A program made the translations under genes and the position numbers. Source: Hyphomicrobiales bacterium (GTDB taxonomy: Bacteria > Pseudomonadota > Alphaproteobacteria > Rhizobiales > RI-29). Taken from it: DNA of 64,000 nt. Below the pieces are notes generated by a model. It searched no databases. It was not told where the DNA came from and saw nothing but the letters and a program-made list of their open reading frames with translations. The stretch is taken from positions 310,001 to 374,000 of the forward strand of contig WGLQ01000007.1 in assembly GCA_016125495.1 (NCBI GenBank). Direction: 5' to 3'. This document shows positions 968-13,713 of this stretch, piece after piece; the first letter of the stretch is position 1; the number at the start of each line of letters is the position of its first letter.

Positions 968-3097
<2,130 letters not shown>

Positions 3098-3334: not shown

Positions 3335-4642
3335 TCAGCTTGCGGTGACCGCATCCTTGCGGACCGCTTGGCGCATCAGCAGGACGACGAGCACGATCGC
3401 CGCCCCGGTGACCGGGATGAGGACATGGTGGATGCCGTCCCAACCGAGCGTCGCATGCAGGTTGCCCGAAAGGAACGAGGCCAGGGCGACACAGCCGAAC
3501 ACTGTCGCATCGTTCAGCCCCTGCACCTTGCCCCGCTCGGCGGGCGTATGGCACTCGGCGACGATTGTCGTGGCCCCGATGTAGCCGAAGTTCCAGCCGA
3601 GCCCGAGCAGGACGAGCGCGATCTTGAAGTTGGCGAGATCGATGCCGGCGAGCGCGACCCCGGCACAGGCCAGCAGCATCACCAGGCCGATCAACACGAT
3701 TCGTTCGCGCCCGATCCAGGCAATGAGATTGCCCGTGAAAAAGCTCGGCCCGTACATGGCGAGCACATGCCAGCGGATGGTGTCGGCCGCCTCGAGATCG
3801 GAATAGCTGCAGGCGACCATGGCGAGCGGCGTCGCGGTCATCACCAGCGACATCATGGCATAGGCGATCGCCCCCGAGGCGATGGCCGCGAGCAGGCGCG
3901 GCTGGGCGAGGATCACCGAGAGCGGACGCGGCCCGACGCCGCCCTCCGCCACGGAGGCTGGCCGCGGAATGCGCACGAACGCGAGGATGATCACCCCGAC
4001 CGCCAGCACCAGCGCGTTGCCGAGGAAGATGCCGGCATGGAAAGCGGGCGCCAGCCACTCCTTGGTCACCCCGATGATCTCGGGCGTCAGTAGCGCCGCC
4101 AGCACGCCGCCCGCCAGCACCCAGGAGATCGCCTTCGGCCGGAACGACGGCGGCACGTTGTCTGCGGCCGCGAACCGGAAATAGGTCGCCGTCCCCTGCG
4201 CGATGCCGGCCAGACCCGTACCGAGGCACAACAGGAAGAAGCTGCCATCCAACACGCCCTTGGCCGCGACCAACCCGCCGATCGCCCCGATCCCGACACC
4301 GAGCATGAAGATCGGCCGCCGGCCGAAGCGCTGCATGAGGAGCGAGGCCGGTGCCGATGCGAGGAAGCTGCCGACGACCGCGAACGTCACCGGAAGGGTT
4401 GCATAGATCGGGTTGTCCGCGAGCACGTTGCCCGCAAGCCCGCCGATCATGACGACCGTCATCACGGAGATGCCGACGCAGGCCTGCGCCAGGGCGAGCA
4501 ACACGGCGTTGCGCCGGGCCAACCAGTCGTGACCCGCGGCCGTCGCGGTCTCCGCCGTCATCTTCTGCATCGCGTCGCAATGGACCCGAGAGCCGCTTCC
4601 TGTCAACGGCGCCGCGGCCACGGGCTCCAGGGTGTGACACAT
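3335..4642 (-). CDS. MFS transporter
   Basis: A 12-TM major facilitator superfamily permease; substrate unknown. The loop motif after TM2 is recognisable (LLMQRFGRRPIF), and a second half with AMYGPSFFTGNLIAWIGRE mirrors it. The start is uncertain. ATG at 4642 has a GGAG six bases upstream and lies about 22 nt after a predicted FNR-type transcription start. ATG 4570 (MQKMTAETATA) or 4561 would give a shorter N-terminus closer to the first helix, but lacks a clear ribosome-binding site. It sits between thiL and hppA, where related genomes usually have no transporter, so it is probably an insertion into the block with its own promoter. Some distant homologues export drugs or metabolites; no motif here decides. 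Confidence 0.85.
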   Translation of the reverse strand: MCHTLEPVAAAPLTGSGSRVHCDAMQKMTAETATAAGHDWLARRNAVLLALAQACVGISVMTVVMIGGLAGNVLADNPIYATLPVTFAVVGSFLASAPASLLMQRFGRRPIFMLGVGIGAIGGLVAAKGVLDGSFFLLCLGTGLAGIAQGTATYFRFAAADNVPPSFRPKAISWVLAGGVLAALLTPEIIGVTKEWLAPAFHAGIFLGNALVLAVGVIILAFVRIPRPASVAEGGVGPRPLSVILAQPRLLAAIASGAIAYAMMSLVMTATPLAMVACSYSDLEAADTIRWHVLAMYGPSFFTGNLIAWIGRERIVLIGLVMLLACAGVALAGIDLANFKIALVLLGLGWNFGYIGATTIVAECHTPAERGKVQGLNDATVFGCVALASFLSGNLHATLGWDGIHHVLIPVTGAAIVLVVLLMRQAVRKDAVTAS

Positions 4643-4670
4643 GGCCATCTCCGCGACCTGCAATCGGTGA

Positions 4671-4712
4671 TTGATAGCGGCCGCATGGCGCCCTTTCATT
4701 GATCGACATCAA
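4671..4712 (-). promoter_or_regulatory. FNR/FixK-type class II promoter upstream of the MFS gene
   Basis: TTGAT-CGAC-ATCAA at 4699-4712 matches the FNR/FixK consensus TTGAT-N4-ATCAA exactly. On the minus strand a -10-like TATCAA lies at 4676-4671, giving a start near 4664. The box is then centred at -41.5, the classical class II activator position. The leader to ATG 4642 would be about 22 nt. This predicts low-oxygen or nitric-oxide induction of the MFS gene. Confidence 0.65.
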
Positions 4713-4735: not shown

Positions 4736-5773
4736 TCAGAAATGGTCCCAGCCTGTGCGCTCGGGAAGGGCGATCACGGCGCCGTCGGCATCGAGGAGCC
4801 TCAGTCCCGCCTCCGGCTCCGTTATCCGCCCGATCTCGTCACTGGCGGAAAATCCCAGCGGATTGGCTTGCCGGTGTGCCAGGAATGCCGCCATCCGCTC
4901 CTCGGGCACGGTACAGAGGGGGGTATAGTCATCACCGCCGGTCAGGACGTCCATGAGCGGCACGTGCCCCTGTTCGACCAACCGCGCGACAACCGGATGG
5001 AGCCGGACACGCGAGGCGTCGATTTCCGCACCGACCCCCGAAGCGCGGCAGAGCCGGCCGAGGTCACGCACGAATCCATCGGAAAGATCGAGCGACGCGC
5101 TCGCGAACTCACGGATCGCGGCAGCGAGGATGTCCGGAAAGACGACCGGTGGCGCCATGTAGAGGCGAACGAGTTCCCTCAGTTCGCCCGCGACGAGCCC
5201 GTGCCGCTTGGCGGCAGCGGGATCACGGAAATAGCGCAGCCCGAGGGAGGAGCCGCCGAGTTGCCCGAAGAGGAAAATCCGGTCGCCCGGTCGCGCCCCG
5301 GTGCGCCGCACCGTCCGCCCCTTGGGTATGCGGCCGATGGCGGTGATGGTGATCGTGAGCGGTCCGGGCGTCGAGACGATGTCGCCACCGAGCAGCCCGA
5401 AGTTCTCCCCGGGCGCCATCCACTCCGACAGCCCCTCGACGAAGCCTGCGATCCACTGGCGCGTCGTACCCTTCGGCAGTGCCAGCACCATCTGATATCC
5501 GAGGACCGGCCAGGCGCCCTTGGCGACGAGGTCCGAGAGGTTGACCGCGACGGCCTTTGCGGCGATGTCCTGGGGCCGGTCTTCTGGAAAGAAATGGACA
5601 CCCGCGACGATGGCATCCGTGGTGATGACGAGGTCGCACCCCTCGGGCGGAGCCAACACGGCGGCGTCGTCCCGGAACCCCAGCGCGCCCGGATGGGCGA
5701 GTGGGCGCAGGTAGTCCGCGATCAGCTCGTCCTCCGAGCCGATCGGATCGCTCGCATTCGCGGACGTTTCCAT
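4736..5773 (-). CDS. thiL: Thiamine-monophosphate kinase
   Basis: A 345-residue enzyme that phosphorylates thiamine monophosphate to thiamine pyrophosphate, the last step of thiamine biosynthesis. It belongs to the AIR synthase/PurM-like ATP-binding superfamily. Visible signatures are the N-terminal GFRDDAAVL nucleotide/metal motif (about residues 31-39), ITTDAIVAGVHFF, AVNLSDLVAKGAWP, GGDIVSTPGPLTI and the late SLDLSDGFVRDLGRL. Its length is typical. It lies 23 bp after nusB on the same strand, the usual alphaproteobacterial order nusB-thiL, and is probably cotranscribed. No TPP riboswitch is seen upstream. The ribosome-binding site is weak (GCGGAA), which fits translational coupling. Confidence 0.96.
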   Translation of the reverse strand: METSANASDPIGSEDELIADYLRPLAHPGALGFRDDAAVLAPPEGCDLVITTDAIVAGVHFFPEDRPQDIAAKAVAVNLSDLVAKGAWPVLGYQMVLALPKGTTRQWIAGFVEGLSEWMAPGENFGLLGGDIVSTPGPLTITITAIGRIPKGRTVRRTGARPGDRIFLFGQLGGSSLGLRYFRDPAAAKRHGLVAGELRELVRLYMAPPVVFPDILAAAIREFASASLDLSDGFVRDLGRLCRASGVGAEIDASRVRLHPVVARLVEQGHVPLMDVLTGGDDYTPLCTVPEERMAAFLAHRQANPLGFSASDEIGRITEPEAGLRLLDADGAVIALPERTGWDHF

Positions 5774-10851: not shown

Positions 10852-13713
10852 TCAACGGCCCTCGGATTCGCCGCGGTCGAATCGCCGTGCGAAATCGGTG
10901 ATGCCGCCACCGGCCAGAATGCGGGCCTGCCCCACCCAGTTCTCGCGCTCGATCCGACCCTTGAAATCGAGCTGCTCGCTGATCGATTCGATGTCGGCTT
11001 CCGTGAAGTCGGCGATCTGGCGATACTGGGTGATCCCCATCTGGAAGAGCTTGCGCTCGATCACCACGCCGATACCGCGGATCCGCTTGAGGTCGTCCGG
11101 CGCGGACGGCGCCCGCTGCCCGATGACCCGGCGGCCCGAACCCTGTTCGCCACGAAGAGCCTCCGAGCGAACTGAGCGCAGTCCGGCGAAATTGCGCCGC
11201 ACCCGCCCCGCTCCTGCCTCCCCCGAACGATCGGCATCGTCGCCCCCTTCGCCGTCCTCTGGCTCGACATGGGCACCGCTCGACAACGCCGGTTCCACCT
11301 CGGTCAGGACCTCGCGCGCCGCCCCTTTCAGCCTCGTCTCGCTCGAGTCGGCTGTCTCGCTCGTGGCCGCGACGGCGGCTGCTGCGGCCAGTGCAGCGGC
11401 CGCGCTTGCGCTCTGCATCGCCGCTTCGTCCGCCGGCGGCGACGCCGCGCCAGCTTCCTGGTGTCTCGTGGCAAGCACGCGCCGCGCATAGAGCGTCTGC
11501 CCGCCTCTCGCCAATACGGCCGCCTGCTCGATCCAGTTCTGACGCTCGACGCGGCCACGTTCGCCCAGCGCCGCATTGAGCGCGCGCACATGCTCGGCTT
11601 CGAGGCCGGCGATATCGGCATAGGTGGTGATGCCATGCCCACCCAGCATCGAAGCCGTCCAGGCATCGATACCGGCAACGAGGGTGAGATCATCCTCGCC
11701 CGGTGCCATGGCGGGGCCGGCCGAAGCGGAACCCTGCTGGGTGGCGACGGCGACGCCTGATCCGGCCGCCGCCGCCGCTATGGCCAGCGCCGTATCGGAA
11801 ATGTCGGTCCCGCCGCTCGTCCCTTCATCCTCGACGGTCGCGTCGAGATCGGCTTCTTCCCGACCCGCGGTCCGCGCGCGCCAATCCTCGATCGGGGCCG
11901 CGTCCGGTTCCGCGGAATCGATGCGGGCGATCGCCTCGTCGACCACTTCCGCATCCTCGTCGTCGTCAGCGCCCTGCAGCACCTCTTCGCGGATCAGATC
12001 GTCATCGGCGTTCGAGCGCATCCGGTCGCGATGCCGAAAGACGCCATCGTCCTCGTCGTCATCGTCGTCATCGTCATGATCATCATCGTCGTCGTCTTCG
12101 TCTTCGTCTTCGTCTTCGTCTTCTTCTTCGTCGTCGTCGCTGTCCGGCTCGTCCTCATCGTCCCGATCGTCGTCTTCGTCGTCTTCGTCGTCCTCGTCCT
12201 CGTCTTCTTCGTCGTCGCCCTCGTCCTCATCGTCATAATCGTCGTCGGCATCTGCGACCACGTGGCCACGCAGAGGCTCGTGCGTCTCGTCCAAGGGCTC
12301 TCCCGCACTGCCCTCCTCGTCGACGGCGACGTCGTCGTCTCCATCCTGTTCGTCGGGCATCGGAATGGGCGCCGGACCGACATCCCAGCCGGGCGCCTCG
12401 TTGCCATTGGCCTCTCGAACGTCTTCGAAGCTGGTGATCTCGGCGGTCGACTCAACGGTGGCGACGCTCTCGGCCTCGGCCACCGATGGGGTTCCCTCGA
12501 AGCCGCGCGCGACCGCGGCCGCCGCGGCCGCAGCCAGCACGCTCGCCCCGCGCGGCGCGCTGCCTGCATGCGCTGCGCCCTGCTCGACTTCCGCGATCTT
12601 CAGCGCACCGAGATCACGCCGGCGCACGAAGTGCGTCGTGCCACCCCTCTCGAGCACGGCAGCCTGCTCGATCCAGCCTTCGCGCGAGATGCGGCCATGG
12701 CCGAAGACGCGGTCGAGGCCGTCGACCTGAACCGCATCGAGACCAGCGATCTGATCGAAACCAGTCACCCCCAACTCCGCGAGGCGGCGGGCGGTGTCGG
12801 CATCGATACCGCGAATTCGTGTGAGATCGTCGGTTCGCCCGCTCGCGGGCGTCACCTGCGGCACATCGCCGATCCAGGACACATCGGCGGCCAAGACGTT
12901 TGCAGCGGGCCGCATCGCGGCGGCAGCGGCGGCGGCAGCCGCGAGCGCAACGGCCGCGTCGTCGCCACCGATCCCCTCGTGGCTGCGTTCACCGCCAACG
13001 GTCGCGACCGTGGCGATGGTCGCCGGGATCACCTCCGACAGCGTCGGCCGACTCTCGATCACGGGGCCTGCGCCCTGGTTCACGCCAGCTCCGGCCGCGC
13101 GCGCGGCATCGGCCGCTGCCGCCAAGGCCCGGGCATGTGCCATGTCGTCGACTTCCTCGGCCCCGCCAGCGACGTCGGCGCCGCCCGCAGCCGCGCTTCG
13201 GCCGGTGGCTAGATCGACCTCGGCCATCTGCACATCGCGATCGGACGGAACCACGGCCTGCGGAGCCGGGGCCTCGTCGACGCCCCGAGAGGGAGTGGCG
13301 CCTCCGAGCCCCGACTCCATCTGCTCCAGGGACGCACGGGCCTGCGCGCCGGCCGCCTCGACACCATCCTGCGCCCTCGCCACGACCTCGCTGACCGAAC
13401 GCTCCGTCGAGGCGGAGACGCGGTCGATGGCACCGTCGTCCCGCAGCGCGCTGGCCGTACCCGCCACGACTGCCGCCCCTGCGGCCACCGCAGCCGACGC
13501 CTCCCCGACACCTCCCGCGCGAGCCGTATCGTGCTGCTGGCGCTGGAGCCGACGTGCCTCGGGCGTATAGGCGCGACCACGCGGATCGGCCGCCGCTTCG
13601 AGTGCATCTTGCCGCGCGGGAAAGAACCACAACCGGAGCATGAGCCCGATGAGCGCGCCGACGAGAAACACGGCCAGCAGAATGATGGCAGTCTGGAACG
13701 CGTAGTACGTCAT
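10852..13713 (-). CDS. Membrane-anchored protein with three helix-hairpin-helix-like (H3TH) modules and a long Asp/Glu tract
   Basis: A 953-residue protein of unknown function. Residues 7-31 are a membrane segment, followed by an Ala-rich, coiled region. Three related modules occur near residues 295-365, 673-745 and 880-945. Each starts DDL(T/K)-x-(I/V)-x-GI, continues through a G(I/V)T-(x)-DQIAGL-like segment, and ends R-x-x-W(I/V)xQAx(V/I)LxxGG. This pattern matches the predicted flap-endonuclease-like H3TH family, usually found as one copy at the end of short proteins. Between modules 1 and 2 lies a tract of about 70 almost purely acidic residues (488-558). No nuclease active site is visible, so DNA binding is inferred only from the fold. 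It lies downstream of the 34-residue membrane peptide and the BON/OmpA gene, same strand. Confidence 0.8.
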   Translation of the reverse strand: MTYYAFQTAIILLAVFLVGALIGLMLRLWFFPARQDALEAAADPRGRAYTPEARRLQRQQHDTARAGGVGEASAAVAAGAAVVAGTASALRDDGAIDRVSASTERSVSEVVARAQDGVEAAGAQARASLEQMESGLGGATPSRGVDEAPAPQAVVPSDRDVQMAEVDLATGRSAAAGGADVAGGAEEVDDMAHARALAAAADAARAAGAGVNQGAGPVIESRPTLSEVIPATIATVATVGGERSHEGIGGDDAAVALAAAAAAAAAMRPAANVLAADVSWIGDVPQVTPASGRTDDLTRIRGIDADTARRLAELGVTGFDQIAGLDAVQVDGLDRVFGHGRISREGWIEQAAVLERGGTTHFVRRRDLGALKIAEVEQGAAHAGSAPRGASVLAAAAAAAVARGFEGTPSVAEAESVATVESTAEITSFEDVREANGNEAPGWDVGPAPIPMPDEQDGDDDVAVDEEGSAGEPLDETHEPLRGHVVADADDDYDDEDEGDDEEDEDEDDEDDEDDDRDDEDEPDSDDDEEEDEDEDEDEDDDDDDHDDDDDDDEDDGVFRHRDRMRSNADDDLIREEVLQGADDDEDAEVVDEAIARIDSAEPDAAPIEDWRARTAGREEADLDATVEDEGTSGGTDISDTALAIAAAAAGSGVAVATQQGSASAGPAMAPGEDDLTLVAGIDAWTASMLGGHGITTYADIAGLEAEHVRALNAALGERGRVERQNWIEQAAVLARGGQTLYARRVLATRHQEAGAASPPADEAAMQSASAAAALAAAAAVAATSETADSSETRLKGAAREVLTEVEPALSSGAHVEPEDGEGGDDADRSGEAGAGRVRRNFAGLRSVRSEALRGEQGSGRRVIGQRAPSAPDDLKRIRGIGVVIERKLFQMGITQYRQIADFTEADIESISEQLDFKGRIERENWVGQARILAGGGITDFARRFDRGESEGR
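12042..12252 (-). repeat. Low-complexity GAC/GAT/GAG codon tract
   Basis: About 210 bp made almost only of Asp and Glu codons (read on the plus strand as gtc/atc/ctc triplets). It encodes the acidic tract of the H3TH protein. Simple trinucleotide runs like this are prone to length change by replication slippage. Confidence 0.85.

Follow-up and report, generated by a model that had tools for sequence, protein, structure and literature searches.

Two described systems bear most closely on the locus presented here. The first is CcoA of Rhodobacter capsulatus, a copper importer of the CalT family, which has M233xxxM237 and H261xxxM265 as ligands and a loop residue, C247 (PMC8406296). Members of the RfnT-like CalT subgroup lie in the neighbourhood ribH-nusB-thiL-calT (PMC6362234); when tested directly, three of them take up Cu but no riboflavin, with Cu import shown in Escherichia coli, yet they do not restore cbb3 oxidase in an R. 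capsulatus ccoA mutant, which the authors of that study attribute to species specificity (PMC6362234). The link to cbb3 is thus not established for the RfnT-like subgroup, and its client enzyme is unsettled, since members import Cu yet fail to rescue cbb3 in a foreign host. The second system is the regulon of FnrL, for which ChIP-seq identified ccoN and ppk2 (RCC02684) among the direct targets of R. capsulatus and showed binding at bchEJGP and usp in R. sphaeroides (PMC4634722, PMC4263372). CcoA and copper do not come up in the study of the R. capsulatus regulon (PMC4634722), the CcoA papers and a copper review that we searched make no mention of FNR, and in the open-access literature we found no paper joining CcoA with FnrL; the one article matching both CcoA and Fnr, on Caulobacter, did so through a funding acronym.

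Here we describe a calT gene of the RfnT-like type that is preceded by a perfect FnrL-type box, in a window comprising the whole 64-kb stretch of Hyphomicrobiales DNA that was analysed. Our principal reading, which we consider probable, is that lineage-specific FnrL control matches copper import to the assembly of cbb3 oxidase.

The CalT-like gene and its neighbourhood

The gene (3335..4570, minus strand) encodes 411 aa from an ATG at 4570, with a possible longer form from 4648/4642. Sequence searches of Pfam/NCBIfam and the PDB with the transporter gave generic major facilitator superfamily (MFS) models (PF07690, E = 7.6e-24) or no match; its identity as a CalT came from a literature match first and residue tests afterwards. 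The protein has M240xxxM244, C254, and H268xxxM272, with spacing identical to that of CcoA at an offset of +7. The M/M/H/M set is invariant in 128/128 homologs and C254 is kept in 97% of them; as judged by numbering offset only, CcoA Cys49, Cys225, and Cys367 have no clear counterpart. An AlphaFold2 model (pLDDT 92.5, pTM 0.89) has an all-helical MFS fold, with M240/M244 in helix 224-253, H268/M272 in the next helix (258-277), and C254 in the loop between, matching the published layout of the CcoA ligands in TMH7, loop, and TMH8 (PMC8406296). PDB fold matches of the model were MFS transporters, including YajR (3wdo), the template used for CcoA, and the PF07690 match and the model together give the protein the 12-transmembrane-helix MFS fold of the CalT family. 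The gene is the sole CalT match in our search of the genome, and no CalT gene was found beside the complete cco cluster. From these sequence and model features we assign the protein to the CcoA-like copper importers (CalT, RfnT-like), Cu transport being its predicted activity. The initial annotation had described a transporter of unknown substrate that might export an anaerobic product; the CalT/CcoA signature (PMC6362234, PMC8406296) points instead to copper import.

The gene order in the window is nrdR-ribD-ribE-ribH-nusB-thiL-calT-hppA. The upstream neighbour thiL (4736..5773, minus strand; TIGR01379 above cut-off) encodes thiamine-phosphate kinase, and the downstream neighbour hppA (968..3097, minus strand), about 240 bp after calT, encodes a membrane pyrophosphatase. 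Position near ribH-nusB(-thiL), by which the RfnT-like subgroup is recognized, is thus found in the window. Among 125 homolog loci with upstream sequence, many of them too short to show thiL and hppA both, same-strand neighbours were thiL in 46, hppA in 57, and both in 40, so that the thiL-MFS-hppA arrangement is common in this bacterial order. Given this, and given that ribH-nusB-thiL-calT is an already described arrangement (PMC6362234), the earlier view that an MFS gene is unexpected in a vitamin/housekeeping block is not borne out. Elsewhere in the window (10852-13713, minus strand), a 953-aa ORF combines helix-hairpin-helix-like repeats (RIRGI...) with a strongly acidic Asp/Glu tract.

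The palindrome and the predicted class II promoter

A perfect TTGAT-N4-ATCAA lies at 4699-4712, reading TTGATCGACATCAA on the top strand and TTGATGTCGATCAA on the minus strand. It is the only perfect box in the window, none occurred in 100 dinucleotide shuffles (0/100), and the genome (4.05 Mb in 36 contigs, 99% complete) has nine in all, this one included, with 26 occurrences of the TTGAY-N4-RTCAA form; the box of the initial annotation is thereby confirmed. By half-site frequencies in a 395-kb genome sample, the intergenic DNA as a whole should hold ∼0.09 perfect boxes and the coding DNA 0.76. We annotate 4699..4712 (minus strand) as a predicted FnrL binding site, a palindrome acting on the minus-strand gene, on the basis of its rarity and of the consensus shared with ccoN upstream regions.

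The predicted −10 element, TATCAA (4671..4676, minus strand), lies exactly 22 bp downstream of the box; with transcription starting at 4664 (minus strand), a position predicted from geometry alone, the box would be centred at −41.5. Class II promoters need no −35, and in this GC-rich genome only 0.66% of positions hold a hexamer that agrees with TATAAT in at least 4/6 bases. Comparable spacing is seen at two other perfect boxes of the genome, before ppk2 (TAGACT at N22) and bchE (TACACT at N21); no good −10 stands at such a distance from the ccoN box. Both the TTGA-N6-TCAA palindrome and the −10 spacing are therefore present before calT, the −41.5 centre pertaining to the predicted start only. 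The −10 placement proposed earlier is upheld, and an FNR-type class II promoter before the MFS gene is supported as a prediction, a matching FnrL being encoded in the genome. Promoter prediction called no conventional sigma-70 promoter for calT; TTGACA at 4601-4606 was considered as a sigma-70 −35 and rejected, as it is without a good −10.

The longest MFS ORF has starts (4712/4699) that fall within the box. With transcription beginning near 4664, usable start codons would be 4648/4642, preceded by a leader of 16-22 nt and by GGAG at 4649-4652 (minus strand), a possible ribosome-binding site for ATG 4642, or else 4570, which is also possible since alignment with homologs begins near residue 15 of the 411-aa form.

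The box is not conserved among CalT homologs. No box scoring at least 9/10 was found upstream of any of 165 CalT genes (the 125 homologs and 40 more, mostly from other genera), the best scoring 8/10, while the positive control, ccoN, had boxes of at least 9/10 upstream of 26/30 homologs, 11 of them perfect. Among the genomes compared, all of them from other bacterial families, a box before calT is thus peculiar to this lineage. In Paracoccus calT loci (L043-L097), a segment resembling TGGATCGTNACCGA, with 7/10 agreement to the FNR box, recurs in many species ∼50-70 bp upstream, and is probably the end of the upstream gene.

FnrL, its predicted regulon, and the oxidases

A search of PF13545 matches recovered FnrL at C4:310182-310931, scoring 323.6 bits against NF045989 (cut-off 300). 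It has a Cys cluster near the N terminus (CGECPIRERAVC), a central Cys, and TIETVSRQM as its recognition helix (E-x2-S-R), and its PDB relatives are FixK2 and FNR. Two other full-length Crp/Fnr proteins were considered as FixK or NnrR-type regulators and set aside, having by eye no E-x2-S-R helix. The sensor is most likely FnrL, of the Fe-S type, rather than FixK; of the two types first proposed, FNR and FixK, the FNR type is favoured, with Fe-S cysteines and a score above cut-off.

Perfect boxes also precede ccoN of a complete ccoNOQPGHIS cluster, which encodes cbb3 oxidase; bchE, beside a photosynthetic reaction-centre gene (G000:C28:4162-4175; L017:3063); and ppk2, encoding polyphosphate kinase 2 (G000:C4:267439-267452; L011:2940). 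The organism is thus an anoxygenic phototroph whose FnrL regulon is of the ordinary kind. Around a universal-stress-like protein gene and an oxidoreductase-like gene, in a setting typical of FnrL, two near-consensus boxes fall within 2.2 kb (G000:C25:52750 and 54954; L177), and TTGACCGAAATCAA (G000:C9:148349-148362; L222:2350) stands between a cobyric-acid-synthase-like gene, which it closely follows, and a gene for a BPSS1780-like membrane protein.

The genome encodes only two COX1-family proteins, cbb3 and an aa3-type oxidase, the latter assigned by elimination, and no member of the cytochrome cd1 family was found. Since these COX1-family and cytochrome cd1 searches revealed neither NO reductase nor cd1 nitrite reductase, denitrification, which had been suggested as the setting of the transporter, is unlikely.

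From the computed features (the box and its rarity, promoter geometry, a genome-encoded FnrL, a like box ahead of the cco cluster, and CalT identity) we infer FnrL binding and activation, Cu transport by CalT, and delivery to cbb3, as follows. When oxygen is low, FnrL whose Fe-S cluster is intact would bind the palindrome at 4699-4712 and recruit RNA polymerase to the −10 at 4671-4676 by class II activation; transcription would begin near 4664 and yield CalT, which would import Cu to the cytoplasm while FnrL also switches on ccoNOQPGHIS; and the CcoI Cu-ATPase would pass the imported Cu to the CuB site of cbb3. With calT and the copper-requiring cbb3 both apparently under FnrL, Cu uptake would rise as cbb3 is built. 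A fuller version we offer more tentatively, seeing slightly less than even chances for it: that an RfnT-like importer was recruited into the FnrL regulon, so that oxygen sensing directly sets cytoplasmic Cu import for cbb3, possibly with co-transcription of the membrane pyrophosphatase. If this is true, RfnT-like CalTs can serve cbb3 biogenesis.

Other readings of the box and comparison with described systems

An FnrL-driven transcript may read through calT into hppA, in which case hppA would be the target as much as calT, and more membrane pyrophosphatase would be made in anaerobic photosynthesis alongside ppk2, as part of a pyrophosphate/polyphosphate energy programme. The two genes are on one strand with no terminator-like site called in the ∼240 bp between them, and ppk2, with its perfect box here, belongs to the FnrL targets of R. 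capsulatus (PMC4634722). In a few relatives (L112, L117, and L118), 9/10 FNR-like boxes (TTGACGGTTATCAA, TTGATATACATCAC, and TTGATATATATCAC) lie 122-162 bp upstream of hppA itself. Yet the box in the window sits directly before calT and not hppA, while the 240-bp gap forms a GC-rich fold (z = −1.85), may hold a promoter of its own, and is kept in relatives that have no box; we regard hppA as an unlikely co-target. The L112, L117, and L118 boxes are an observation in their own right, in that other lineages may have their membrane pyrophosphatase under FNR control.

Less likely still is that the match arose by chance or that the site is dead, with constitutive expression of calT from the upstream rib-nusB-thiL transcript. 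The absence of a box from all CalT homologs tested would fit such an account, as would the end of thiL only 24 bp upstream, which makes read-through into calT possible, and the finding by ORF inspection that 2/9 perfect genomic boxes lie within coding genes. The other ∼7 are intergenic, however, against ∼0.1 expected, which puts the intergenic set far above chance; several of these sister sites precede known FnrL targets, and the calT box has a correct −10 at exact class II spacing. That the transporter is instead an RfnT in the older sense, moving riboflavin in connection with the adjoining genes of the nrdR-ribD-ribE-ribH-nusB-thiL block, is very improbable: Ochrobactrum anthropi RfnT was once reported, in work cited in PMC6362234, to support a riboflavin auxotroph, but three RfnT-like CalTs moved Cu and not riboflavin (PMC6362234), and the Cu-ligand residues are invariant among homologs.

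The preferred reading, FnrL control of copper import, can be placed against described systems as follows. With the CcoA of R. capsulatus and R. sphaeroides and with the CalT family, the window protein shares the 12-helix MFS form, the MxxxM/HxxxM spacing, the loop Cys, and a genome that encodes cbb3 (PMC6362234, PMC5829832, PMC8406296); unlike the Rhodobacteraceae CcoA cluster, it belongs by its ribH-nusB-thiL-calT neighbourhood to the RfnT-like subgroup, and it alone among the CalT homologs examined has an FnrL-type box. Rhizobiales CcoA-like genes downstream of ccoNOQP-ccoGHIS (cluster 11B) likewise present a copper importer apparently tied to cbb3 (PMC6362234; PMC5829832), but there the tie is one of gene position, whereas here a distant locus would be tied in through an FnrL promoter of its own. 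The box and the targets ccoN, bchE, and ppk2 are those of the Rhodobacter FnrL regulon (PMC4634722, PMC4263372), and the box and the predicted class II spacing those of class II FixK/FNR promoters such as that of pioABC (PMC3050613). For copper import to respiratory oxidases, the transporter family is known, and no oxygen control is reported in the literature that we found. As the single CalT found in its genome, with the regulatory box that the cbb3 operon also has, the gene offers a direct test of which oxidase CalT serves, and a case of a widely conserved housekeeping-block gene gaining regulon membership in one lineage. The box, sensor, promoter class, and transporter family are thus already known from these systems; what is new is the wiring of calT to an FnrL-type box.
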